Part shown: positions 117 through 58,480 of the stretch, in pieces
Position numbering within the stretch: the first letter of the stretch is position 1
Layout of the letters: every line of letters starts with the position of its first letter
Source of the DNA: Membranipora membranacea
Taxonomy: Eukaryota > Bryozoa > Gymnolaemata > Cheilostomatida > Membraniporidae
Assembly: GCA_914767715.1 (NCBI GenBank)
Contig: OU612071.1
Span: forward strand, 23,929,681 to 23,993,680
Length of the DNA stretch: 64,000 nucleotides
Direction: 5' to 3'
Notes under the pieces: generated by a model
What the model was told of the DNA's origin: nothing
What the model saw: only the letters and a program-made list of their open reading frames with translations
Database searches by the model: none
Position numbers and translations under genes: made by a program

Positions 117-3100
117 GTGCATTACTCCACTGGTGTTCAGGGTGTAGGTATTGGAAGAGTTCACGTTGGTAATATTGAAAGATATGTATAAGCCGCCACT
201 ACAATTAAAAAAACCTGGGAGTTCTATAAGATTGACATCGAAACACGGCATTGAAATTATGGTAATGGAGGTTAAATGTGTAAGCACAACAAACTGTAGA
301 AAATAATTCAGATTGTGATGATGAGAAAACCTCTGGGCACAAGATGCTCAAAACTGCATAGGTAGTGCATAGAAAGTTTAAAATCTGACGCATCTTCTCG
401 ATCTACATGTTTGCCCAGCAGTTTTAAACTTATTTGTAAATGGAATTGTTTTAATTATTTCATATTCATTCACCTCTCAATCGTGTCTCTGGACAGTACA
501 GCATTTATGGAGGGATTCTTTAGATACGCGTAGCTGAAGGTCTGATTCAGATCCTCAGAGACTTTGAAGATCACAGCAGTTGTTCCTACTGTATCTCCTT
601 CAGGCATTTTAAACATCAACTCATTTCTTTCTCTACAAAAAAAAAGTGTTTCTGTTTCTTAAGATCAAGGAGGTGTTTTGCACAACATTAATTCATCAAT
701 TTTTTAACCATCAAACCATCCACAGAAATACTACCACATATCCCCTCAAAACAGTGGTGGTGGTGGTGGTGCCATATCTCTAGTCATTTACTCACTTTTC
801 TGTGCTTGAAGATGCTTGCTCAGCTGCATTAATAAGTAAGCTGACTCCATCATCTGGTATCAGACCAGAGACTGTAACAACTGTCCCCCCAGCAAGCTGA
901 CCAGATGTAGGAGATAACATCCACGCATCCTCTGATGTCAGCTGGAACAAACCAAATACTTTAGGCTAGTAATCTTTCAGTCTCACAGTAATGTATTTGT
1001 AGCATGTGAGGCATCCCAACTTCATGGCATGAACTCAAACTACTTTATAGCAAGAGTTGAATGACATCTTCTCTTACCTCAAAACAATTTGGAAACGGTT
1101 CAGTCCATTGGTTATTCTCACCACAGGTCCGTTCCTGAGATCCATTTATAGCATACCCTTTAGGACAGCTGACAGTAATATTCTCGTTTATGAAGTAGAA
1201 TGTGTCATATGGAGATATGATCTCATTTCCAGCAGTTGATTCAGGTAGACATTTTGAAACTGCAAAAAAATGTATGAGAACATAATAAAGACCTGATGAT
1301 ATCTATTCAGGGTGGAAAGGCCGGATGAAATTGCAAGCAACTTACATGCAAAATCAAATACGGATCGAAAATTGTTTGACGATTTATGCATGGGATGGTT
1401 TTAAATTGAAAGGTGTTTGAGAAAGGTTTACATTAACTAATAGCCTAAAGTTGGTCAGAGATAGAAAAGAAGAGATAAGAGATGAAAAAAACGCTGCTTA
1501 CTCTCTGTTGTAAGCTCCCACAAAAATGTTTCCTCAATATTCCAACTGTATTCTGAAAAGTCCTTGTTGAGAGAAGCTACCATTATAGTGTCATTGCTAG
1601 TAACGGTGATACCAGTGGGAGTGTTCAGCTTGCAGACTTTAAGAGCCCCTGGTATCGTCTCAGTCAATTTCTTATTCCCTTTAAAACGAAAGAGATCATC
1701 ACATTATTAAGTATCGGCATAACCAGACATATTATTATACAAGTTTTGTTGTAGTCCAATAAACATAATCAGGTTGTTTCAAGATCAGTTGACGTCATAT
1801 AAATTTGAGCATATTATAAGGAACATTATGATTTAAAACATGGAGGAATGGTGGGACTGATTATAAGCACAAAACCATAACATGAAGAGAACTTCCATAT
1901 TGCTCAAATATTCACCTACCGTTACAAATTGAGTATACTTGTTCCTGACGAAGGTCAATGATAACAATAGCTTCATTGCTCATGCGCCCCATAGAGACTA
2001 GCACCTGATCGCGGATGAGCCAACTGAAACTGTCGAGACCTCCAGTTTGTGCAGTTTGGAACGGTCTAGGAACAAGCGGGATGTCACTTTGGCCAGTAAG
2101 AAGTGTGATCTCTTTGGTGTGAAGATTATATCTTGAGACTCCATATGCATGGTTTATATATATGTTGTTTTCTTCTCTGTCTGCTATTGCATTCAAGGGT
2201 CTTGGGCACTTTCGAGCCAGTGCCACATCAAGGACTCTCGTTTTCTCAGTAACAAAGTCATTTTGAATAATGACCTTGAAAGCGTTATCAAGAACAAGGA
2301 GTTTGTTCCATTTTTCTAGCAGTGTTATAGTCAAAACTGAACTGAACTGGGCATCCAAAGAATCTTTCAATGTGTTTTCATCGTATGTGTCCCAGCTTGA
2401 TGGGACGATTCCTCTCCCAAATGAGTCACACGTACCGATGATTGTGCTGACCATCCCTATTTTGGAGTCATAAAGTCTAACGCAACCATTCTGAAAGTCA
2501 GCGATTGCCATCTTTGTTTGGTTGAATTGAACAAAGCCACTGATTAACGAAAACTCTGCCACAGAAGCGTTCCCATCTCGGTAACCTTTATTGACATCTT
2601 CCTGCGTTTCGTTCCCAACAACAAGAGTGACAGGTTTTCCTGGTACAAGGCGTTTGATAGTCGTCCGAGCGTTAATAAAGAATGTTCCCGGATTGTAACG
2701 ATCCTCTTGAATGACATCGATAGGTCTATTCTTAAAGTTTCCCCAATCTACATCAACTTTGGTCAACGAACCAAAATCAACATCTAACTCACAATTTGCA
2801 TTATCAATAAGTATGTTGGAGCTATCCACTGAGACAGCATCGACGTCGAACACATTTTTCACTTCTTGTTGACAGTAAGTAATCTCTTCTCTGCCTATTC
2901 CTAAGGCATACAACTGACTTGAGTCTGAAGTAGACACATAGATCGTGTTTTGAGAAACTGCAAGGCCAGACGTTTGATTGAGTTTACCGACATCCAGAGA
3001 TCCAGCGGTAGAAATAGATCCAGAGACATCTACGGGAAATAATTGGAAATTAATAGAAGAGTTGTGATACTTAAATATTTGAAACCTATGTGGGCTGCCA

Positions 3101-5066
3101 CAAACCTGAATTATCTAATGACCAACAATGTTTGCTATATTGTGATGCTAACCAAAAACCTCGATGGAGAGATTTTAGAATCCATATTTTTACGAATAAT
3201 AATTTGTAACACCTAGACAGCTTATAGTAAATTATCTAAGTCGTCTCTTCTGTTGAAAGGCGAAAAACTTACACAAGCACCAGGGCACAAATGAGATACA
3301 TTGTTGGAGTTTTTCTTGATTTAGGACTTATAAGGGTATGATACAACATGATTTTAATCTATATTTACCTTTGCAGACAGAATATGTCTTTTCCTCAGTT
3401 AAGTCAAGCAGAGCTAGAGAGTTAGTGTGTGAGGCCACCATTAGTTTGTCCGGGACCATCCAGCGCAGTGATGACAATGCCCCTACATGTGTGTTGTCAG
3501 ATCCAAATGGTCCTGCTTGGAAAATGTCAGACCCCTCGATCGAGTTCCTACCGACAAGTCGCCTCAACTGGCTATCTGTCATTCTCACAGTTGTTACAGC
3601 GTAGTGGTGAGAAATATATACGATCGATTCATCACTGGTAGATAGCAGGGAAAGTGGCTCAGCTATATTCCGATTTGGCAAAAAGAGCTCCAGAGTTTTA
3701 TCTCCAAATTTGTACGTATATATGATTTTGTAAGTACCATCTATCGTGAGAAGCTGTTTAGAGTTTGCCAATATAAGAAGGGCAGTCGGGTTTCCAAAAT
3801 TAAACTGGTCGGCTAGCACAGTCTCGCCTTCTGCAAGTGTTTGGGCATACTGATTCTGTTCGCAAGATCCAATAAGATTGGTGATCTTATTAGTGTTACT
3901 GTCAAATTCTTTGACACAATGGTCTGGGGAATATTCACTTATTGCAAACTTGTTGTTGCTGTATTGTGCAACATCTAAAATGTATCTGAAGATCTGACCC
4001 TCCCCATCACCTGCCGCTCCTCCATCTTTAGCCAGCATAAGACTTCCAACAAATGGGATTGGAGCCTCTCCCGGGTTAAATTTGAATAGAGCCGCGTTTG
4101 TACCCTGTCTGACGGCGATAAGTGTTGCTGGGTTGTATTTGTCTTCTCTTATTATGGCTAGTTCGTCATATTCTTGTGATCCTTTACTCAACTCTTTGAC
4201 ATCTTTGAGTCCAAACTTACTGACATCTTCCACTGCGAGTGATGATGAAATATTGTTGCTAAAAGATAAGAAATAAAAATCATTAGGACAATGAAAAGCT
4301 ATCCCATCAAACCCATTCCCACAATTCCACTATGATTGTCTCACCTATTTTTTTCATCTAATTGTTGTTGGTAATTGCTATAGTCAAGGCAGGGAACTCG
4401 GGACAAACACTCTGGTCAAGGGTAACCTCCCTTGGGTAATTAAGTGGAATATCATGTCTTAGAAGTTGTCTTCGCATTATATAATGGAAGGCAACTTTGT
4501 GCTCTGCAGAAAATTAATATAAGTTTAAATACTTCGACATTTGAAAGAGATAACATTATGAATTAGTTAGTGACTGCAAACATTCGCTATATGTTGATGG
4601 AGAGGTATTAGGAGGGAGTTCATCACCTACAGCTTGCAGTGAATTATCCAATGTCTCTTGCAACAAGAAACGAACTAGTGAAAGTCTTATCAGCCAATAA
4701 TATTGTAAATATGTGTTTACCAAAATTGTTGAGCATAATTGATTGTGAATGTCAGAGTCGAAATAAAACAGACATTCCATGTGAACCTATAGTCACAACT
4801 AGTGGTAGTAGTTTTGACGATATCACTTGTAACACTTTTAATTGCGGATAAAAACCGATGTAGTTTTTTGCCCCGAATCAGTAGAAACATCTTCACACAC
4901 CTCAAATTACCCTCCTGCTTTGTATAAACCCTACTATATTTTCTCCCATCTAGAGTTGATCAGGTGCTAGCTCAAGGATAGCGTAGGTAACATGTTATAC
5001 AATAAATAATAACACACACCTGAATAATATTGTGAAGGCAATGACCATGGATGGAGTGATAGACAT
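117..5066 (-). CDS. Secreted NHL-NHL-CCP-IPT/TIG multidomain protein (3' end outside window)
   Basis: Eight exons read leftward: 5066-5020, 4258-3369, 3029-1920, 1678-1502, 1259-1078, 941-796, 632-474, 198-117. All junctions are GT-AG, and phases 2,1,1,1,0,2,2,0 agree; the sum is 2793 nt, exactly 931 codons. Exon 1 encodes a hydrophobic signal peptide (MSITPSMVIAFTILF). The two large exons hold related NHL-type propeller sequences, with DG-x-G then F...Y and IGSC/IGTC endings; both share an EDKYNP/EDRYNP segment, so they arose by duplication. Exon 5 is a CCP/sushi module with four cysteines and a conserved W between the last two. Exons 6-8 form IPT/TIG sequence (SPTSG.LAGGTVVTVSG, later SRDTI and SGGLYISFNI). 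The protein is probably extracellular or membrane-anchored, perhaps in adhesion or recognition; that role is inferred. The first start codon of exon 1 is used because the signal peptide follows it. No stop codon is reached inside the window. Confidence 0.85.
753..775. repeat. GGT trinucleotide microsatellite
   Basis: A short run of GGT repeats lies in the intron just left of the 796-941 exon of the NHL/CCP/IPT gene. It is a simple repeat with no other visible role. Confidence 0.8.
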
Positions 5067-23345: not shown

Positions 23346-23483
23346 AAGTGGGAGTACCTTTTACAATATAATATTTCAACCAAAGACCGGATCATTCGCA
23401 CCAATAACTTTCTCCAATATTTTTGAATGAAAATTGCATGCGGGTTATTTAGTAATTCTTTATTTAGGTCCAGCTCCCTTTAA

Positions 23484-23965
23484 AGGGATAATACACTTCT
23501 GATCTCTGTTTGGCAGCCAATGGAGCACAGAAAAATGTATGTACATACAAAAACTCCTTATTTGTAATTCAAAACCCCTTGTTCTGCTCAAATGTGCAGC
23601 CCAGCTTAACACTTTTACTACCATAACCGGATATGGTAATAAAAGTGTTAAGCTGGGCTGTTAGAAAATAACAAGCTAAAGTCAAAAGGTCATCCTTATT
23701 GCACATGCGCACTTTGAGTATCTGGACAATTGAAACACTAACCAAGAGGTAGGAGCACACAACCGCTCACAAAATCAGCTTTTTTCAGATCACAAGCAAT
23801 TCTGTTAGTTGTCTTATTTCTTGTTGGAGATGCACAACTACAATTTAGAATGCACATTTGAGCAGAACAAGGGGTTTTGAATTACAAATAAGGAGTTTTT
23901 GTATGTACATACATTTTTCTGTGCTCCATTGGCTGCCAAACAGAGATCAGAAGTGTATTATCCCT
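23484..23965. mobile_element. TTAA-flanked foldback MITE with nested hairpin
   Basis: Arms at 23484-23598 and 23851-23965 are nearly perfect 115-base inverted repeats beginning AGGGATAATACACTTCTGAT. TTAA is present directly outside each end (23480-23483 and 23966-23969), the signature of piggyBac-type insertion, although the tips are not the usual CCC. Next to the left arm a second hairpin (23597-23617 with 23640-23660, 21 bases each) lies inside the spacer. No coding sequence is present. Confidence 0.85.
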
Positions 23966-24127
23966 TTAAATAGTATCCAATAAAAATTAAAAAAGGATAA
24001 TATACATAGCAAACCCAAACGATCAAGTGTGACACAATCATGACACAGCATCTAAATAATAAATAATAACATGCAGATAATACAAACTCATCTTAGCAAA
24101 GGTGCACTTGTTTACCGGTGTCTTTGA

Positions 24128-24133
24128 TTTTAT
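24128..24133 (-). terminator. Poly(A) signal AATAAA downstream of rep
   Basis: AATAAA on the minus strand lies about 42 bases after the Rep stop codon, a usual distance for a transcript end. Use of the signal is inferred. Confidence 0.45.
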
Positions 24134-24145
24134 TCTCTTTCGGGT

Positions 24146-24173
24146 ATTGAGCAGACTCTTCTCATTGCTCAAT
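24146..24173. other. Stem-loop directly after rep stop
   Basis: ATTGAGCA pairs with TGCTCAAT across a 12-base loop, touching the Rep stop codon. It may be a second intergenic hairpin of the viral genome or part of transcript 3'-end formation; either role is inferred. Confidence 0.5.
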
Positions 24174-24174
24174 C

Positions 24175-25065
24175 CTACGCTCTGACAGAACTCGACACGG
24201 GAATAATGTTGTTTGTGGTTGACGTCGCAGAATATAAGGCCGTAATCATATCTACATAACTATATGACTTCGAATATTTGTTACCTGATCTGGCAACACC
24301 CGTGTAAACAAGACACAACTTGTAGCCTCCTTTCACTGTACTCGGTATGGGTGTCTGTCTGCTAACTTTAGTAGTTCCGTACTTGACCCAACCATAAAAG
24401 TCATCCATGATTACTAGGTCCTCTCCTTCATAACCGTCCCACCAGGGTCCTCTAGGTTTGTAGTATGTGCTTTCTGGGAAGTATCTTTTGCTCAAACTGG
24501 CAGCAAATCTGCTTTTTCCACATCCGGTTTGTCCATGGATCACAAGGAGTATCGTCTTCCTCTCTCTCTTAGCTGATTCCTTGAGTATGGAATTGTATTC
24601 ACGGATTCCTCTTTGATACGTGATGAAGCTAGTGGGATGTTCAGAAGCAACTTCTTGGACTGTTTTTCCTTCCTCAAGGCTGGCTGCAACTGCATGCAAG
24701 TCTGTTCTTTCTCCTTGTCTTGTGCCCTGTCCATATTCTTTGAAGTTGCCTTCTTTGGAACAATACTCTCTGCTTTGTGCAGGGTTACCCCTGGCTCTCT
24801 CCAAATGTGGAGTGGCGAAAACGAACATATCACAAACTTGACTGAATCTTTTCACTGCTGTCAGTTCAACGTAGCCCAATAAATGAGGCGTCCCTTCTTT
24901 GCCTTTTTCAACGCCAACGATGAGGTACTTGGCCTCTCCAGGGTAAAGAAGTCCAATCTGTTCATACTGCTCAGTAGTATAATTGTTAATAGTGAAGCAC
25001 CACCGTATACAAGCTGTATCCTGTTTAGCTTTAGGCATCTCTGCACAACTGATTTTATTCTGCAT
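24175..25065 (-). CDS. rep: Endogenous CRESS-DNA virus replication-associated protein (Rep)
   Basis: The frame is open for 296 codons, near the usual circovirus-like Rep length. The order of motifs is right: rolling-circle motif I CFTINNY near residue 28, motif II HLLGYVEL (usual HLQG, with Q replaced by L), motif III YCSKEG with the catalytic tyrosine, then helicase Walker A GQTGCGKS and Walker B VIMDDFYGW. Rep nicks and rejoins the viral origin and unwinds DNA. After Walker B, about 24335-24378 reads less like the family than another frame does, before the usual VKGG region resumes. This suggests two compensating indels, and the C-terminus after it is atypical. The start may be the first ATG or the one 27 bases in (25038). 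No capsid gene is seen on either side. An old viral copy, open but probably impaired. Confidence 0.9.
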   Translation of the reverse strand: MQNKISCAEMPKAKQDTACIRWCFTINNYTTEQYEQIGLLYPGEAKYLIVGVEKGKEGTPHLLGYVELTAVKRFSQVCDMFVFATPHLERARGNPAQSREYCSKEGNFKEYGQGTRQGERTDLHAVAASLEEGKTVQEVASEHPTSFITYQRGIREYNSILKESAKRERKTILLVIHGQTGCGKSRFAASLSKRYFPESTYYKPRGPWWDGYEGEDLVIMDDFYGWVKYGTTKVSRQTPIPSTVKGGYKLCLVYTGVARSGNKYSKSYSYVDMITALYSATSTTNNIIPVSSSVRA

Positions 25066-25104
25066 TGCTCTCTCTCTCTCTCATATACTATTTTACAATG
25101 CATG

Positions 25105-25113
25105 CGGAATATA
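25105..25113 (-). promoter_or_regulatory. TATA-like element upstream of rep
   Basis: TTTATATTC on the minus strand lies about 40 bases before the first Rep ATG, between it and the origin hairpin. Function is inferred from position. Confidence 0.3.
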
Positions 25114-25122
25114 AACAAAGGT

Positions 25123-25181
25123 AGGTCCAAAGAGGTGCTGGTGAGTATTACCCAGCACCTCGGACCTTGGACCTCGGACCT
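25123..25181. other. CRESS-DNA virus replication origin with hairpin and iterons
   Basis: A perfect 10-bp stem (25132-25141 with 25152-25161) encloses a 10-base loop TGAGTATTAC. The loop holds GAGTATTAC (25143-25151), which fits the NANTATTAC consensus that Rep nicks. Directly to the right are three tandem 7-mers, CGGACCT, TGGACCT, CGGACCT (25161-25181); on the left an inverted copy of TGGACCT occupies 25123-25129. Such iterons are the Rep-binding sites of circoviruses and relatives. The nonamer is on the plus strand, opposite to rep, an arrangement more like geminiviruses than circoviruses. It lies 67 bases upstream of the Rep start. Confidence 0.9.
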
Positions 25182-25309
25182 ACTTTCTTATTGGCTACAG
25201 CATGACTCATAACTTTATTTACCCCGTGTCATTATGGCCTTTGATGTTGGAAGAACTTATTTTGCGATTGACTGACAACTGACAGCGTACTCAGCGTACA
25301 AAAATACAT

Positions 25310-25530
25310 TGGAGGTGATCGACCATCTGAACTTGATCACAGCTGACAGGAGAAGGTTGATGTTCGGTATTTTATCATGATTCGGGCTGGTTTCCCAATA
25401 TCTGATATGGTGGTACTGACTATTAGAGCACCCACATTGAAACTAAACTACGCTCCCTTGATTATGTGTCTCAATGTCATTATGGCAACTGCGGTAAGGG
25501 CAGCGAGAAAGAAGCTCCATAAGCTTCTTG
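25310..25530. repeat. Direct repeat, copy 1 (partner 26297-26510)
   Basis: Both copies contain GATCACAGCTGACAGGAGAA, then CGGGCTGGTTTCCCA and a GGCAGCGAGAAAGAAG block in the same order and orientation. The copies flank about 770 bases. This copy begins about 130 bases right of the viral iterons. Confidence 0.7.
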
Positions 25531-25707
25531 TGTTACTATATACTTAAGCTCATCGTACCAATGACTATGAAGAAAAAGCATTCAGTGATGAGTTGGCTAT
25601 GCACTATGACTATATAGCGTTGCCCAAAATAAGAGAAATGCACGGCATTGTTTGCTGCAAGATAGCAAATGCATGTTGATTGACCTACAGTAAATAACAA
25701 AGATTAT

Positions 25708-26296: not shown

Positions 26297-26575
26297 AAGT
26301 ATGTAAGTATCGATCGAGCCACTGAACAGGATCACAGCTGACAGGAGAATGATGATGATTTTTTTTTTATCATGAATCGGGCTGGTTTCCCAGTACCTTG
26401 TCGCATTGACTATTATAGCATACACATGGAACTTTATGGACGCTCTTTTGATGTTGTGTGCCTCAACGTCACTATGGCAACTGCAGTAAGGCAGCGAGAA
26501 AGAAGGTCCATGAGTGACTTATGTGATACTATATACTGTGTTCTCAAACCCATGACCAACATGGAATGGTGAGAA
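26297..26575 (+). repeat. Direct repeat, copy 2, with exon-like ORF
   Basis: This is the better-preserved copy of the repeat at 25310. It carries a plus-strand frame (MNRAGFPVPCRIDYYSIHME and onward) ending at an AATG/GTGAG donor-like site. The frame is broken in the other copy. It is probably part of an old element; no domain is recognised. Confidence 0.4.
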
Positions 26576-27560: not shown

Positions 27561-28189
27561 GTTTTTTTACTTTTAACAACAACTCGAGAAATTAATCAAG
27601 ACAAACGGTATCCATCGCTGATTACCATCAGTTCTGTTGATGGTATTTGAGCTCAGCCAATGATGGAGTACAGCAGTCACAGGAAACTAGATAGGGTTGC
27701 AGTATCAATGATTTCACTCTCTGTTCTGATAATCTACAGTTACTTTTAGCAACTTTCATAAGAAGAAAAATCTGGGAGAAAGTTATACAGTATTTTTAAA
27801 CGAAACACCGAACAATTGGAAGCACTTAATTTCTCAAGCATCATTGAATCAAAGTTGCATTATAGAACTATAATAATTCATCATTTATGTCCAGCTTCCA
27901 CTAAATAGTAATTGATGAACTTGCTGTTTAGTCTCAAAAACTTAATGTGCAAAGCAAAACCAATGATCAAATGTGACACAAATACAGAATCAAACAGTAA
28001 TAATGATAACAAGTGAATGATACAATCTTATCTTAGCGCTGCCACTGGTCATTTACTCATCACCGTTGTTTTTGAACGTCAGGATGCATATAACTGTCGG
28101 TATGCATGCTTCTTGGTGGTAATTAGATGACAAAAGAATCCCAACAGAAACCAAAAGAATGCAACAGTCAACCTGTAGGTTTGTTTTTT

Positions 28190-35049: not shown

Positions 35050-37076
35050 TCAGATATTTTTACAGAGATAGGATTTCGTAACCTGGCCGTCAGAGTCATT
35101 TACAAATCTCACTCTTAGAAGATCTACAATGTCCCCGCCTTTTGTGAGATAAACATTGTTTGGTGCCTGTGTCCTTATAACGTGCAAGTGTTTTTTATGT
35201 ACCAGAAGCTGATTTTTGGATGACAAATTTTCCAATTCGCCCAATCGTGCCACTATCTCAACTAGTGGATTTTTACGTTGCCTTACTAACCTCTTTATAT
35301 GCTGCATATAGTTTTCAAATACGAATGCACTACATTGGTTAAGATCCCCATAGATTACTGTTTGTTTGGCTATGTGGAGTAGTGAATGGATATTATAAAC
35401 CAAATAGTGTTCCCCATAAAGAGGCTCAATTCTTTGAACGAAGTATTCCAGTAGCTCATGGGCAAACTCCCAGTACTCCCCAGCCATAGATGAATTTAGA
35501 AGAATTGTTATGGCGACTGAGAGGCACAGAAAGTGATCATACTGATCTTTGCTCAAATGATTTTTCAAAACAATTTTACCAGTGTATAACAAAAAGCTGC
35601 GAAACTCAGTAGCTTTAAAGTGTGGTAAATGCTTCAGAGACCTAGGTTTACGGGCTAGCTCTCTTGGTGCTTGTTTAGATATGTGAGTAAGAAGGTTATT
35701 GATGGCAGTAACAGAACGAAAATTCAGGCGTCCACGACCTTTTTTTTCATTGATCCATATATTCAAGAGTCTCCGCTGGGTACCAAGAAGAACCTGGTGC
35801 ATATAATCTATAGGGAAGGCATTTATCATATCTGGCTGTTGAATTTTTATGAAGGGTGTGGGTCCTGTGTGATGTTCATCATTTGTTTTGGCTCTGAATG
35901 ATTCATCAGTTCGAAGAATGAGGTTTCTTATCTGAGGATAGGTTATTTTCATAAATTTGTGTGAATAAACACCTCGTATTTGGCACCCATCACACCCAAA
36001 ATATCCAGAGAATGACTTAATTCCTTTACACATAGCCCTAGCTGGGGCATCACACACCACTTGAAAAAGCTCAACAGGCACAACACGTAATGAATAGGCA
36101 AATCCATGGGCAATCATATTTTGAATCTCCTCAAGTGTCTGGTTTAGAAATGCCAAATCGCTAGGTTTCGCAGAGGTTGAACACATAGCTACTGGAAATA
36201 CTCCAAACTCAGGTGCATCATATACCTTGCATAAAATTGGCCACAGGGAAGTTGAGAGAGATCCACTTTTGGAAATTGGCAAACCATCTATATTCATTAC
36301 CAGTCTGATGCTAGGAAGCAATGGGTGTGCAGTCAAGAGTTTGGTGAGCGTCCTCTTGAATCCAAAAAAAGTGATATTGTCTTCCAGACATATTCAATGG
36401 TTTTTCTACACTTTCTGTGCCTAGCAGTGTTCTTGCCATTCGAGGCAAGTTCGCATGTCCATTGGAGTGCAGTATTTTCAGTAGACTATCCACTGATCGG
36501 TGAGTGCATTTGAATTCCAGGGCCCACTGCTGAAGTTCTCCTCTCAGCTTTCCTCCAGAGTCACTAATCATTTCCTCCTCAGTTGATGAATATGTATTCT
36601 CGGTAGGGTCAGACTCCTGTAAATATATAGTTAAATAAATTCAAAAATTGTTATTACTTTCCTGCTAATTTGAGCACCTACAATATCAGCAATCTTTCCA
36701 TGCAATCTAGGTAAGGCATATCCTCTTGCTAAACTCAACCTGATGGATACATACTACTATCAGTGTTTCCCCCTGTCATGTAGCGGGATTAAATAGCATT
36801 GCAGATGGCAATCAAGTTAATACGAGGAACGTGTGGCCCAGCTAAGCGTAGACAAGCCCTCAGCCATGCATAAAAAATTCCTGGGCTATTCTTCAGTTCA
36901 AATTTTGAGTTACATTTCTATGCGAGCAATGGAAACATGCAAACCAATGACCTTATACAGTATTAGTTGACCTCAATATTGAATAGCAATAACATTCACC
37001 ATGAATTTTGAGATCGGCCTCGATCTCAAAATATGCAGCCATTCCCAAGATAGAGCTGAGAAAAAAAACATCAAAA

Positions 37077-48773: not shown

Positions 48774-49079
48774 TCAGGTCAGCCCAATGCAGGCGTAGTG
48801 CTTCAATAGATATCTTCCATCCCTCAAGGGAACTGCTGCATCGCCTCCTCCGTAAAATGTTTTTTTGTTCCATGCTGTTTGTGAATGTGTTGTGCTGGGT
48901 TTGCCACTGTTGATTTGATGGCTGTTGAGGAGGTCAAACAAGTCATTGAAAAATGATATAAAGGTAATGGTAGGTGCTGCACTCTTAGGTAGTTTTCTCA
49001 ATGCTTCCAGTGTCTGACATACCGGCAGCAACGGTGTGACTCTTGAACTGTGCTGCATGATTACTCTTATATCCTTGAA
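48774..49079 (-). pseudogene. P-element/THAP9-like transposase, C-terminal fragment
   Basis: Leftward the frame reads VCQTLEALRKLPKSAAPTIT, then FFNDLFDLLNSHQINSGKPS, ending at a stop. The pattern of a helix followed by F...FD.LNSR/H is typical of the middle to late region of P-element-type transposases with THAP domains. A compatible upstream fragment lies at 52365-52622 in the same orientation. No full frame connects them, so this is a relic. Confidence 0.5.
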
Positions 49080-50770
49080 TGCTGGAATGTTGATATGTTT
49101 TTTGTCACTCTCAGTGCCATCCTCAGCGACTGAGACTTGTCTAACTCAAAGAACTGCACCAAATCATCCCTGCCAATTTCATCTCCACATACCCGTAAGC
49201 TTTCATTGTTGGGAGCAATATAATAATAAAAATTGTTTTGGCCTGTTTATATTTCGATGTATATATGTCCCAAATTTGTTTTGGGTTCCTAAATAATATC
49301 ATAACTTACTATCTGCGAGAGACTAAAGCTTTGTGTGATTTCTCTTATTTTTAACTGGCTGATGAGTTTCACTGCTCAATTCTGATCACTTCAAATGTCA
49401 GAACGTAAAATCCCGTTGCCATATGTCCACTTAATAGCTTAAGGGAAGGAAAATGTTTCAATCATAAGATAAACCTCGTCATCATCTGCTTTTGAGTTGC
49501 ACAAAAATGGCTCTGCCCTATTGTTATTACTTATCTTGGTATTTGGACTCTTGGGAGTTTGATGGCATATCCTTCATTCATAGCTTTCAGAATAGGACTG
49601 GTTGAGATTATATTGTTAGGGTTTGTGTTTAAGCAGTTTATTAACAAAATAGGAGTTGTCTGTTATTCTTTTCAAATGAGACAACTCTTAATAAGTAATC
49701 AAATAAGTTTAATAGTAGAATGTTGTACACACAATAATAATCGGAAGCATTCTGAGTAGAAAAGTAGTCAAGCTATTAAGAAAGTGTCGATGCTCAATAT
49801 GATGGGCCGGTGCTTTCCACCGAATATTGTATCCTTTTCCGTGCAGAAGTTGGATGATCCGTTCTTTTGAGCTTCTTCATTCTGAAAATGCAAAGGATTA
49901 AATTCTAGTTTAATAATTCTAGAATTCGGTCAAATAACTTTCAAATTCTGCTGATTCTAAATTATCAATATCCGGATGAACATTAACTAAGCTTTTTTGC
50001 GGGCATTTCAAAATAACAACTTGTTTAATTGCTCAGCATAAAATTCACTTTTGTAATTGACCTTCATGAGTTAATATGGTTTTGGCTGATACAAATTATT
50101 TTTTCTCCAAATGACAAAGTGTCATGCAGATGATGTAAGTTTTTTATGCTTAGTTCCTCACCTGACATTCCATGACTCGCAATAGTTGTTGGTCTGTGGT
50201 AAGTCATTCACTCTCATCATATGCATATTACATTTGTTCGAAGGAAAGCAAGGCTCCCCGGCCATTTCTCCTTGCCATGAATCCCAACTCATTTGCCGCT
50301 CGCTGCACTATTAAAGGATAACGTACATAGTTTGTGTCTATAATCATTATAACTGTTCTTGAACCTGCGATGTTAGTGTAGGTTAAATCAAATTTGTCAC
50401 TTTTTCAGTGTCTTTGCACTGAAAAAGACTGTATTTTCATGCTAAACTGCATACTCATGAACTCATCAACAAAATTTTCCCACACTATGCTCAATCATGC
50501 TAACCTTCATCATCCAAGAAATAGCATCAGTCGAAACCAGTCAGAACCCTTCAAGCCAAGACATAAATTTGGTCAAATTTAGAGAGTCAATCAATTTGCC
50601 ATATTCCACAGAGTTGGCGGTGCAATATTTGGCTGCAATTTCTACAACACACGTTTAGCCTTCAGTACACATATGGCCCAACAAACCCCACAGATCATCA
50701 AAATTCAAACGTAGAAACTTGCAACTCGCAGCTGTAATATAACTAACAAAAACAATACAGCTTGGCTTGA
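49080..50770. other. Stretch without supported genes
   Basis: It presumably contains missing parts of the P-like transposase, but I could not identify them. Nothing else was recognised. Confidence 0.4.
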
Positions 50771-53500: not shown

Positions 53501-53816
53501 AACTACACTCTATATCTTGTTCGTACATTCGTACATCCTGTTCGTACATCGTACATTCGGGCCACCTGCCATGCGCTGATGCAATGCAATCAAATCTCCT
53601 AATGCCATCTTGATTGGAACATAATATAAATGAAAACAGGAAATTGAGGGAATTGAAAGGAATGGCTTGACTATTTATCATTGATTACGTCTTTGGTAAA
53701 TACTTGGCCCGATTTCAGCAAAAAGACCAAAACAGAACACGACCTATACAGGATATCGTCATTGTGCAGCTATTCTAGTACCCATAGTCACACATGGGAG
53801 CCCTTACATCCTCAAA
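53501..53816. repeat. Direct repeat, copy 1 (partner 56130-56450)
   Basis: It starts in a TCGTACAT-rich stretch, runs through GGGCCACCTGCCATGCGCTG and ends near CACACATGG.AGCCCTTACATCC. Both copies are in the same orientation with only scattered differences. Confidence 0.85.
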
Positions 53817-55945
53817 TGAGAGTCTTTCCCCTTGCCAAAGATATACCCATTGACTAGGGCCGCCTCAATACAAAAGTGATAAATTACTTGGTACCACTTG
53901 TAGGACCTATGGGGATACTTTATTTCAACTCGCTAGTTGATCAAATCTATCTACATCCCCCATAAATTTATTATAATCCACTATTAAAACTTCATAACAG
54001 TATTACAAATAGTATTGTTTACACAATGTTGAATTTTGGAAAGGGGATACCATCGTGTTCTAAACAGATACTCTGTAGCATTTCTTTTCAACAACAAAAT
54101 TACTCAATTATCATAAAAAGTAGCACTGTGCCTAACAGAAATGTAAGGAAACTTTAACAATAGTAAAAATTGATAAGATTACTCAGTTAACACGACATTT
54201 GATGACAACACAAAAACAAGTTTTCATAGGGATGACTAACTTTAATCTTCTGTTTGCGATTTTGTTACCAACGTTTTCCTTTTCATTTTTATCTTCCTTG
54301 GATGAGGATCTGGCACAGACACAGGCAACTGTGTCCCAAAGGGTGAGAATTCAATCTTTTACACATGTGTCACGGACTTAATGGCTCAACAGTGAATTTA
54401 GAGCATATCCGCCATGCCATACCAAGTCACTGATGCCAAGCCCCTGATACCAATCGGCTGATACAAAGATGAGACGTTTTTATAACTCCATGGAGTTTAT
54501 TATTTGATTGCTTTTTCTTGCCGCTTCCGTTTATATTTGACAAATCTGACACCTCTTCTCATAATTGAACAATTAAAAATGCTGATGGATCACTATTTGA
54601 TAAATTTTGCAGAAACATAAAACCCACATTTGGCAAAAGAAAGAATATATTTTACACTATATCCTGCAACAACTGATTTATGTATTATATTAAATTGATT
54701 TCTGGCTTCCCTTGTGGTCGGAAATATACTCTTTGTGTAGCTGAAGGTTCCTATATTTATATCTTGTAGGGCTATGAAGAGGGGCAACTTCAGTAGTTGA
54801 GAAAAGTTTAGAACAGTTTTCATTCCAGTAAAGACACTAGTTTCAACTCTGTCCAGGCACAATTCCAAAGGTTGCCACAGTGCTCTTCATAAAACCTTTT
54901 ACATATAAACACCAAATATGAATAGGTTCTTCTATGGCTTTAAGTTATAATAAAACCAAATGTTTTGATGTTATCCAATTTATCCGATAGTGATCAATTC
55001 TAAACTTAAAAGCTGAGTCTTCTTCTCAATCTTTATGATGGTGATGCTCTTATCATATTGTAAAGTTCATTCATAATCAATTTATACAAAATATTCGGTG
55101 TTAAAGCTTTGTTCCTTTATTCTCTTTGTGAAAAAATTGCTTTGCATCCGTTTTAGCTGAATAGAAGAATCGGTAGTACATGGCTTCATTTTTTAGACCC
55201 TACGTAATGAGGGCTGTCGCTGGCACAACCCAAATGAGAATGCAATATCCCTTTTACATCTTGAGCAAATTTCCAATTCATAATGAGACATAAGATCATA
55301 ATACAATAGATACCCTATAACTGACATTCTTTCACTCAATTCTGTCAATATTTTGAAACATATCGTTGAAATGCAGCAACAATTTTTTCATGTTATTTAC
55401 TCATAAAATTCCGATGACAGTTTCCCGTTGGTTGCCAGAAAATTATAACAAAACCTAACCAAAACAGGAACAAATATCGTACAATGTAAAGTAAATAAGA
55501 TAGAAACCAGGCCAAAACGAAAGTCATTCAAAATAAATGAGTGACTTAAAAAAATTGAAATAAAACTTGCAAAAATACTTATGCGAGATTATAGTGTCCT
55601 ATAATTTCGTATTACATATCCACTCGTTCCAAATTGATGATACGCTGGAAACATAATAACAAATTTCATGATAAACTTTTGTTTTCTATTTGCTGTTTTG
55701 AAAACCTTGCAGTCTGTAAAACTTTTATATGTCTCTGATGGGTTAAATTCACGGGAGCCAAACAAGACAGCTTTTACCATTTAATCGGAGGATAATACTT
55801 TCTGACCAAAGCTGTCTCCACCCTTCAGACATCCAATAAACTTAGAAAACATCAAATCACTCAGAAAAAAAAATTGAGGACCATTGATAACACTAACTGG
55901 GTTACAGATAACATTGTATATAGATAAAACTTACATTGAAACTAT
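53817..55945. other. AT-rich spacer between the two repeat copies
   Basis: No splice-supported exon. The frames at 54593-54868 and 55589-55780 lack motifs and are probably chance. Confidence 0.45.
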
Positions 55946-55954
55946 AGGTCAAAT

Positions 55955-56190
55955 AAGGTTGCAAAGATTAAAATAAAATTTATATTTTTAATTTTTCTCT
56001 CATGGATGAGATTTTAGGGTCGGATAATATCCTGTTCGTATATCCTGTTCGTTACAAAGATTAAAATAAAAGTTAAATTTTTAATTTTTCCCTCATGGAT
56101 GAGCTTTTAGGGTCGGATAATATCCTCTTCGTACATCCTGTTCGTATATCCTGTTCATACATTCGTACATCCTGTCTGTACATTGTACAT
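55955..56190. repeat. Tandem repeats of AT-rich unit and TCCTGTTCGTA motif
   Basis: A unit from AAGATTAAAATAAAA through GGGTCGGATAATATCCT appears twice (about 55966-56040 and 56057-56130). It is followed by several copies of an 11-14-base ATCCTGTTCGTAC motif leading into the 56130 repeat. Confidence 0.75.
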
Positions 56191-56450: not shown

Positions 56451-57239
56451 ACTCCTTCAACCCTTTGTGTGTCATCTATACGATCAGCCATAATATAATC
56501 CCTCCTGTTAGCTATTCTGGTTAAAATTCATTGGAATGACATGAGGTTATAAAACTTGTCATAACTCAAGAACTAATAAGTTTAGAAGGAAACTTTAAAA
56601 TGTAAACCTTCTCCATAAAGTTTTTGATCTGTCTATCCATGTTCTATCAGTCTAGCAATGCCAGAAATAATTTTAATGTCACTGAAACACACAACAAAGT
56701 GTATAAATAGTCTTATTATGTGTTTAGCTTATCACAAATGCCCTCATACTTGTTTTACACAAACAAGATTTATACCACTGGACAGGAAATTTCGTTTGGA
56801 TAAGAAATAAAAAAATAATGAACTCTTTACAGGCCATATCACAGCCATGCTGCAGGTTACAGCGGAGAGGGTGCAATAAATACAAAGTTTATGCAGGCAC
56901 TGCTATTGTATTATATTTATGGATCGATGGCTAGTAGTTGGAAAGCTGCTTTGTACTAGCTACTAAACAGCATTCGTAAGGTGCTGTGTACTAACTACTA
57001 ACAAGCATAGTAGTCTATCGATGCAACTATGTAGCTCAATTCAGGAATAAACCAACTTGTAATTTGCCTGCCTTTGTACAAGCGATGCCCAAACTCAAGC
57101 AAATCTCAGCAAGGCTGACTCACACACATGTATCCTCTTATGATATGCAACAAGATGTGATACCAGAATGCATCAGTATAAATCGAGTGCAAAGCCTATT
57201 TGTCCGTGATAAACCATGATTTTGAATTGAAAGAAATAT

Positions 57240-58480
57240 AAAGACCTTCATCGCATACGCGAAGTCATATGGATACCAGGTAATAGGATACAAAAAATGA
57301 ATATAAAAATGAGATTGCAGATCAAAAATGTGATCTGTGACACATTTCAAAGTGAATACCCTCAAATGATGGAGAAAAGTAATAAGATACAAAAAACTGC
57401 AGATAAAATGAGATGGCAAGCAAATAATGGAATCAAAGGCACATTTCAAAGGAAATGTCCCTCAAATGAGGGAGCAGTAATGAGATACAACAAACTGAGA
57501 AGGCCTCTCGGAGAAATGAGCATTGAGAAGCAGGCAAGTAAAATAAATATGACTATTTGTAAAAAAGATGAAGGAACACTGTTCCTAAGTGATCTAAAGA
57601 TAATACTAAAATCGGACTGATATAAAGAGTCATCTACGGCATACCTGAGTATGATACGGAGAGAAGAATTATGATTTGCCTGAGGTAAAACGGTACTGAT
57701 TGTCAAATAAAAGAATTCAATCAAAAGAAGAAAAACATCAGAGATGGCAGAGTAAAATTGTATGAAAAATTGATAAAGGAAAAACTATCGCAGGGTTGTC
57801 TGAGTCTGCAGTGTGCGCTGACCCGAAGAAAGAAAGCTTGATTGCAAAAGAGAAGGTCAGCAATCGAGCCGCATAGGCTTGTTAAAAAAAAGAGAAAACA
57901 ATGAGGAAACCGGGACAGGAACCAGCGGATAACTCGAAAAAGAGAGAATTTTGAGAATATTGACGCAAACAATAAAATAATGTTATATTTTGAAGTGGGT
58001 AATATTGATGATGCATTGAATAAATGTTGATTTTGAGAGTTTGGCACTATCAAAGGATGCCATAGATTGAAGTGTACTTGGCAAATCGAATTGGTGAATT
58101 GTGAATGGGATTATTTTGAGACATTGAGTCTGGAAAAAATTGGATCAAAAAAAGGGAGACTGTTGAGAGTTTGACTCTATCAAAACATGTCATAAATTGA
58201 AGGCAGCTCTGGAAAACCCTGAGTCAGTATAAATAAGGGATAAATTTTGAGAGATTGACTGGAACTTAAATCATAAACTGAAGTGGAGTCGGTGATAGCT
58301 CAGTGCTTTATTGAAAAAAAAAGAATAGTTTTGGAAGGATCGACTATATCGAATTGTCATACTTAGAAGTGGTCTCTTAACAATACCGATGCTGAATTTA
58401 AAAAAAAGGGACTCTGATAAAAGCTAGATCGAAAAAAAAGGAAAAATTTAGAGGAGATTGGCTTAGGCAAAGAATGGAAG
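57240..58480 (+). repeat. Purine-rich field of degenerate tandem repeats
   Basis: 57285-57490 holds two units of roughly 110-120 bases (ACACATTTCAAAGTGAATACCC...CAAATGA against GCACATTTCAAAGGAAATGTCCC...CAAATGA). Farther right, about 58030-58370 has four diverged units opening with TTGAGAG.TTG and including CAT.(A/G)A(T/A)TGAAG. A and G dominate the plus strand throughout. The ORFs on both strands arise from this bias. Confidence 0.6.

Follow-up and report, generated by a model that had tools for sequence, protein, structure and literature searches.

The window analysed here, a stretch of 64,000 nt from Membranipora membranacea, raises the question of whether a viral origin of rolling-circle replication has been preserved in animal DNA beside a replication gene (rep), and, if so, whether recent insertion or selection explains its survival. 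An earlier note, made from the letters of the window, had proposed an intact origin next to an open rep. The most probable reading of the locus is that rep and the origin of a cyclovirus-like CRESS-DNA virus were inserted fairly recently, that the resulting endogenous fragment is dead, and that it has decayed passively. The coordinates of its parts are given in Table 1.

Table 1. Features of the virus-derived tract and of the host repeats that flank it (window coordinates).
Feature	Position	Strand	Remarks
Left host repeat, like 27943-28037	23998..24097	+	73.5%, E 6e-9
Outer limits of the virus-derived tract	24098..25316		Set by host repeats; true ends inside
Rep-derived open frame, from likely start Met	24175..25038	-	Damaged, no working product expected
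Other-frame piece matching the Rep profile after Walker B	24336..24410	-	Weak alone, E 0.061
Inverted iteron AGGTCCA, left of hairpin	25123..25129	-	
Origin hairpin	25132..25161	+	10-bp perfect stem, 10-nt loop; basis: direct reading, repeat search, folding
Nonamer GAGTATTAC	25143..25151	+	Within loop
Three iterons, core GGACCT	25161..25181	+	Direct tandem, 7-nt period
Right host repeat, like 26312-26537	25317..25544	+	77.6%, E 9e-46

Judged by its anatomy, the stretch at 25123-25181 is a rolling-circle origin. Direct reading and a repeat search revealed two stem arms of 10 nt each (25132-25141 and 25152-25161) with 100% complementarity, enclosing a 10-nt loop (25142-25151), and the perfect stem and GAGTATTAC-bearing loop of the earlier note were thus borne out. 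By transfer of the family rule, the nonamer would be nicked between positions 7 and 8. Four matching 7-base iterons had also been claimed; their arrangement, one inverted at the left and three in tandem at the right (CGGACCT at 25161-25167, TGGACCT at 25168-25174 and CGGACCT at 25175-25181), was found as described, but the match extends only to a 6-base core, GGACCT, common to all four, the seventh base being C or T. The first right iteron overlaps the stem by one base. The GGACCT core occurs 16 times in the 64,000-nt window, counting either strand, and 4 of these 16 occurrences are at the origin. A chance nonamer was ruled out by comparison of stem lengths, by shuffling and by folding. NANTATTAC is matched 20 times in the window (9 on the + strand and 11 on the - strand), with a stem of 10 bp at the origin versus 5 bp at the next best site; the pattern GGTCC..NANTATTAC..GGACC was found once in the window and in none of 100 window shuffles; and DNA folding of a 66-nt stretch gave -15.7 kcal/mol (z = -4.6), a stability equalled by 0 of 200 shuffles.

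The minus strand next to the origin contains a stop-to-stop frame of 301 codons (24175-25080), with a likely start Met at 25038, which, on the evidence of its domains and homologues, is a Circoviridae-type Rep. The endonuclease domain Viral_Rep (PF02407; 64.8 bits, cut-off 26, E = 8.8e-18) is joined to the helicase domain RNA_helicase (PF00910; 40.6 bits, cut-off 21.5, E = 3.8e-10), as in Reps of that type. At E <=0.001 the frame matches 11 distinct PDB sequences of solved structures (best 5.1e-48) and 263 proteins, with identities of 33-48% among the 120 listed. Three rows named cyclovirus, with identities of 35-41%, are present among the matches listed, and many of the best named matches in the phmmer ranking, again among the matches listed, are circoviruses, so that a simple best-match label would be unsafe either way. 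One relative, P0012 (300 aa), has the motifs usual for a Rep and is encoded on an ENA contig 356,261 bases long; it may represent a further endogenous rep whose frame is open.

The type of the source virus is indicated by the strand of the origin and by a tree. In the available text of the ICTV profile (PMC5656780), the origin is placed on the rep strand in Circovirus and on the capsid strand in Cyclovirus. The nonamer here (+) is opposite to rep (-), which is the Cyclovirus arrangement, the capsid strand itself being unseen, with no capsid gene present. The opposite orientation had been pointed out earlier as unlike typical circoviruses, which is correct; however, it is no anomaly, being the rule for Cyclovirus in that part of the profile. 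The tree was computed from 70 rows: residues 15-234 of the window Rep, plus 69 proteins picked by hand from the 120 listed so that the named rows and the highest-ranking unnamed rows were included. The window Rep was sister to P0003 (support 100/99), followed by P0001 (94/93), and it shared its side of the tree with the three cyclovirus-named rows and with unclassified proteins, the circovirus-named rows standing opposite. The split that separates the cyclovirus side received 89/95, which is under the starred level of the tool, and the nearest rows, P0003 and P0001, are unnamed; placement of the window Rep on the cyclovirus/unclassified side has moderate support. Membership of Circovirus was ruled out by the origin strand opposite rep and by the side of the tree. 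Cyclovirus genomes are circular, 1.7-2.1 kb long and carry a capsid gene, whereas the tract here measures at most 1.22 kb and no capsid domain was found in the 12 non-rep ORFs tested of 25 listed. The source virus is described, from its sequence, as cyclovirus-like rather than assigned to the genus Cyclovirus. Two protein scans of viral contigs (14 and 66 pattern matches, none confirmed) and one DNA pattern scan yielded no related locus. P0003 is the closest Rep relative among the tree rows (62% over 160 columns) and comes from an ENA contig of 2203 bases; in it, the sequence that follows motif III is missing as far as into Walker A, and the gap might be an intron or a deletion, or a sign that P0003 is itself endogenous.

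The earlier description of rep as open holds for the frame, which runs for 301 codons without a stop, but not for the gene, which is damaged in motif II, by a pair of frameshifts and in its C-terminal conserved columns. A Rep profile, built from 116 of the 120 listed Reps, matches the rep frame up to profile position 254. After Walker B, the profile is matched by a short piece in another frame (Table 1), behind which the first frame resumes, and the stretch can be read as bearing two mutually cancelling frameshifts. A column was counted as conserved when conservation among the 120 listed proteins reached 90% or more. Over residues 15-234, 2 of 49 such columns are changed, compared with a mean of 1.27 in the relatives, of which 36 of 119 are changed at two or more. 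Over residues 235-301, 11 of 17 are changed, a number reached by none of 115 relatives (largest value 6). The C-terminal changes are divided between the frameshifted segment (5 of its 6 columns) and the sequence behind it (6 of 11), and the latter proportion exceeds the expectation from 1-3% substitution, suggesting further lesions, a tail that was already divergent in the virus, or a higher divergence of the insert.

One of the two N-terminal changes is the loss of the motif II glutamine, a residue kept in 120 of the 120 listed relatives; the sequence around this substitution is otherwise clean. In the part of the PCV2 Rep crystal structure report that was available, the motif II glutamine binds the metal, and the lost residue corresponds to this ligand by motif position. 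Motifs I and III, Walker A and Walker B are retained; with the motif II glutamine lost and the C-terminal columns changed, the set of endonuclease and helicase motifs is not complete. This copy of rep probably makes no working Rep any more. Residues 15-234 resemble those of a live Rep, and the uneven distribution of the damage could alternatively be caused by selection on this part.

The frameshift indels might be sequencing errors. Extended to the whole locus, such an explanation would hold that the insertion is very young, that rep and the origin are essentially intact, and that the frameshifts and odd residues stem from sequencing or assembly. Short indels that compensate each other are a frequent kind of error and would fit, as would the few N-terminal changes and the GC content of rep (0.440), which is in line with youth, being above that of all 70 same-length window bins (largest 0.431). 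However, the motif II change is a substitution amid clean sequence, and a pair of errors would not account for the columns changed behind the frameshifted segment, so that this explanation is unlikely.

The survival of the hairpin and of the open frame in a dead fragment was examined with a neutral model, in which transitions were weighted 2:1 and 5.0% of random substitutions in the rep frame give a stop. At divergences of 1, 2, 3 and 5%, the probability that rep acquires no stop was 0.65, 0.42, 0.27 and 0.12; that the 29 bases of the stem and nonamer remain unchanged, 0.72, 0.52, 0.38 and 0.20; and that the hairpin and the four iteron cores remain unchanged, 0.55, 0.30, 0.17 and 0.05. At 8%, the three values fell to 0.03, 0.07 and 0.01. 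With one assumed indel per eight substitutions, two indels correspond to about 2% divergence, an estimate that the damage in the tail pulls upward. CpG content (0.53 in rep, compared with a mean of 0.47 and sd of 0.16 in 70 window bins) was dropped as a clock, because it was uninformative. Under the model, a fairly young neutral insertion fits, whereas an old one would need selection. The recent insertion suggested previously gains relative support from the near-unchanged N-terminal columns and from the GC content of rep. Selection to keep the origin, the other suggestion, is unneeded, since neutral sequence at a few percent divergence could still retain the hairpin and the open frame; selection is possible, but the case for a special preservation of the origin is not made.

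Host selection could nevertheless have retained the tract if the N-terminal part of Rep, the origin, or both were of use to the host; they might, for instance, act as a decoy by titrating the Rep of a related virus during infection. The open frame of 301 codons, the N-terminal part near the family consensus in front of a damaged tail, and the complete origin all speak for this; however, the metal ligand of the nuclease is lost, and the neutral model explains survival at low divergence, which leaves such a role quite unlikely. A narrower form, in which the near-consensus Rep N-terminus is kept together with a host-borne origin that is still bound, nicked or copied by the Rep of an infecting relative, is very doubtful; if true, a cyclovirus-type origin carried by the host would act as a decoy or as a recombination partner.

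A passively decaying fragment also agrees with the position of the tract in the assembly, where the viral sequence is bounded on both sides by host DNA, as an endogenous element should be. The two bounding repeats recur elsewhere in the window, and the viral tract must therefore lie within 24098-25316. Together with the homology of rep, these flanking host repeats support the proposal that the origin of a CRESS-DNA virus adjoins rep in animal DNA. Exact junctions, a target-site duplication and an empty site of the viral insert were not found, the flank comparisons being no better than shuffles and yielding one unconvincing 7-base match. No capsid domain was detected in the 12 non-rep ORFs tested; 25 such ORFs with 58 or more codons lie between 22 and 27 kb, and short or diverged remnants would escape this search. 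The weak Pfam matches under the cut-offs included none to capsids, one ORF had no match among solved structures, and the frames to the right of the iterons lack an arginine-rich capsid start. The window contains no second copy of rep or of the hairpin, and Rfam and tRNA scans of it found nothing.

Origin and rep would also lie together if the contig had wrongly incorporated a free circle, either viral or of satellite type, during assembly. Such a circle is highly unlikely, in view of the small size of the tract, the lack of a capsid domain in the 12 non-rep ORFs tested, the damaged Rep and the single rep and hairpin in the window, and because host repeats bound the tract on both sides. Since rep and an origin are the minimum for rolling-circle copying, a mobile or amplified unit, copied through its origin in cis or by the Rep of another copy or virus, could also be imagined, but with a single copy in the window, a damaged Rep and no shared ends found, it is most improbable.

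For the favoured reading, a decaying fragment of a cyclovirus-like virus, the following course can be proposed. In the virus, by analogy with the family, the GGACCT iterons would serve as binding sites for Rep, GAGTATTAC would be exposed by the hairpin, and the nick made by Rep between positions 7 and 8 would start rolling-circle replication. The piece inserted into the animal genome would then have comprised rep together with the origin-bearing 5′ intergenic region. Neither the nonamer nor either stem arm is interrupted, which rules out opening of the circle exactly at the nick site; with its origin uncut and lying inside the insert, the viral circle would have been opened elsewhere. To the right, the insert would end no more than about 170 bp from the origin, and at its other end shortly past the 3′ end of rep, with the capsid gene mostly or wholly missing. 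Passive decay would have followed, and the origin would be perfect because a target of 30-60 bases has not yet been hit. In this account the anatomy, the homology, the damage and the host repeats at the flanks are seen in the assembly, whereas the way of insertion, the inactivity, the age and the lack of selection are deduced.

Related elements have been reported from other genomes. Dennis et al. (2018; PMC6069186) described, in the portion of the article available, endogenous cyclovirus-type elements in Varroa, Tropilaelaps and the ant Pseudomyrmex, which, like the tract here, are rep-derived, cyclovirus-like and located in invertebrate genomes; all newly identified elements in that study derive from rep, and some were called intact. 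Cyclovirus-like endogenous elements from a nematode, and uninterrupted endogenous reps, have been reported as well, according to the excerpts available. In the present case an origin hairpin with iterons is seen beside rep, whereas the main text of PMC6069186 does not contain the terms "stem-loop", "origin of replication" or "intergenic". Free Cyclovirus genomes, as presented in the available text of PMC5656780 and PMC8622408, likewise have a hairpin with a nonamer of the family type beside the 5′ end of rep and opposite to it, and likewise encode a Viral_Rep plus helicase protein; unlike them, the tract in the window has no capsid gene that was found, has a damaged Rep, and occupies at most 1.22 kb inside host DNA.

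Integrated CRESS-virus DNA that extends beyond a rep fragment is likewise on record. In the accessible parts of the reports, complete circovirus genomes are described in tandem in carp and golden-line barbel (PMC6372831), and whole CRESS genomes are integrated in Entamoeba and Giardia (PMC7493932). These cases are complete or tandem, whereas the window has one partial copy with no recognised capsid gene. Such complete genomes should include the origin region, the origins of the integrated copies not being described in those parts, and the earlier assessment of the completeness of the origin as unusual was overstated. Geminivirus-related DNA in tobacco chromosomes, as outlined in PMC3187698, is likewise DNA of a rolling-circle ssDNA virus in a host genome, but it concerns another family, a plant and several copies rather than a cyclovirus-like insert.

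A text search of the literature, in which few subscription journals were covered, found no published endogenous cyclovirus for which a hairpin and iterons are described, and the sources available characterise endogenous elements through rep and capsid genes and not through origins. An integrated cyclovirus relative that keeps both origin and rep allows the origin strand and the iterons to be read from a genomic fossil, and the strand read here conforms to the distinction between Cyclovirus and Circovirus. The combination of hairpin, iterons and rep could be used across animal genomes to ask whether origins outlast rep more often than expected under neutral decay; such a comparison would test the idea that host-borne origins act as decoys.

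Several other features were observed in the window. Not far to the left of the viral tract lies a MITE-like element (23479-23970), with 120-bp arms (23479-23598 and 23851-23970) that are 100% complementary and each start with TTTAAA. A TTAA target for this element would presumably recall piggyBac. The sequences on its two sides resemble 27766-27905 and 27943-28037, which are 37 nt apart there versus 513 here, and the copy at 27766-28037 appears to be one without the element. Two neighbouring ORFs on the minus strand (1912-3114 and 3328-4329; 400 and 333 aa) are alike by eye and NHL-repeat-like, by eye only; neither has a Pfam match, and the second has only 3 homologues, all unnamed, the best being 86% identical. 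A transposase-like ORF of 447 aa (35050-36393, - strand) has 1415 relatives, of which 120 were listed. PF02992 or PF13960 is present in some of the listed relatives, and those that bear a name are all from animals, namely crayfish, crab, mussels, Ciona, a gorgonian, hagfish and fish. The ORF at 48774-49145 (- strand) matches TNP-like_GBD at 24.9 bits (cut-off 24.8) and is probably a transposon remnant. Short arrays with units like ATCCTGTTCGTAC extend over 53514-56190, beside a 93-bp tandem duplication (55958-56145). Finally, a 99-bp tandem repeat of 2.2 copies (57280-57498) is located inside an open frame of 129 codons (57231-57620, + strand), and would therefore encode a repeated peptide, if translated.
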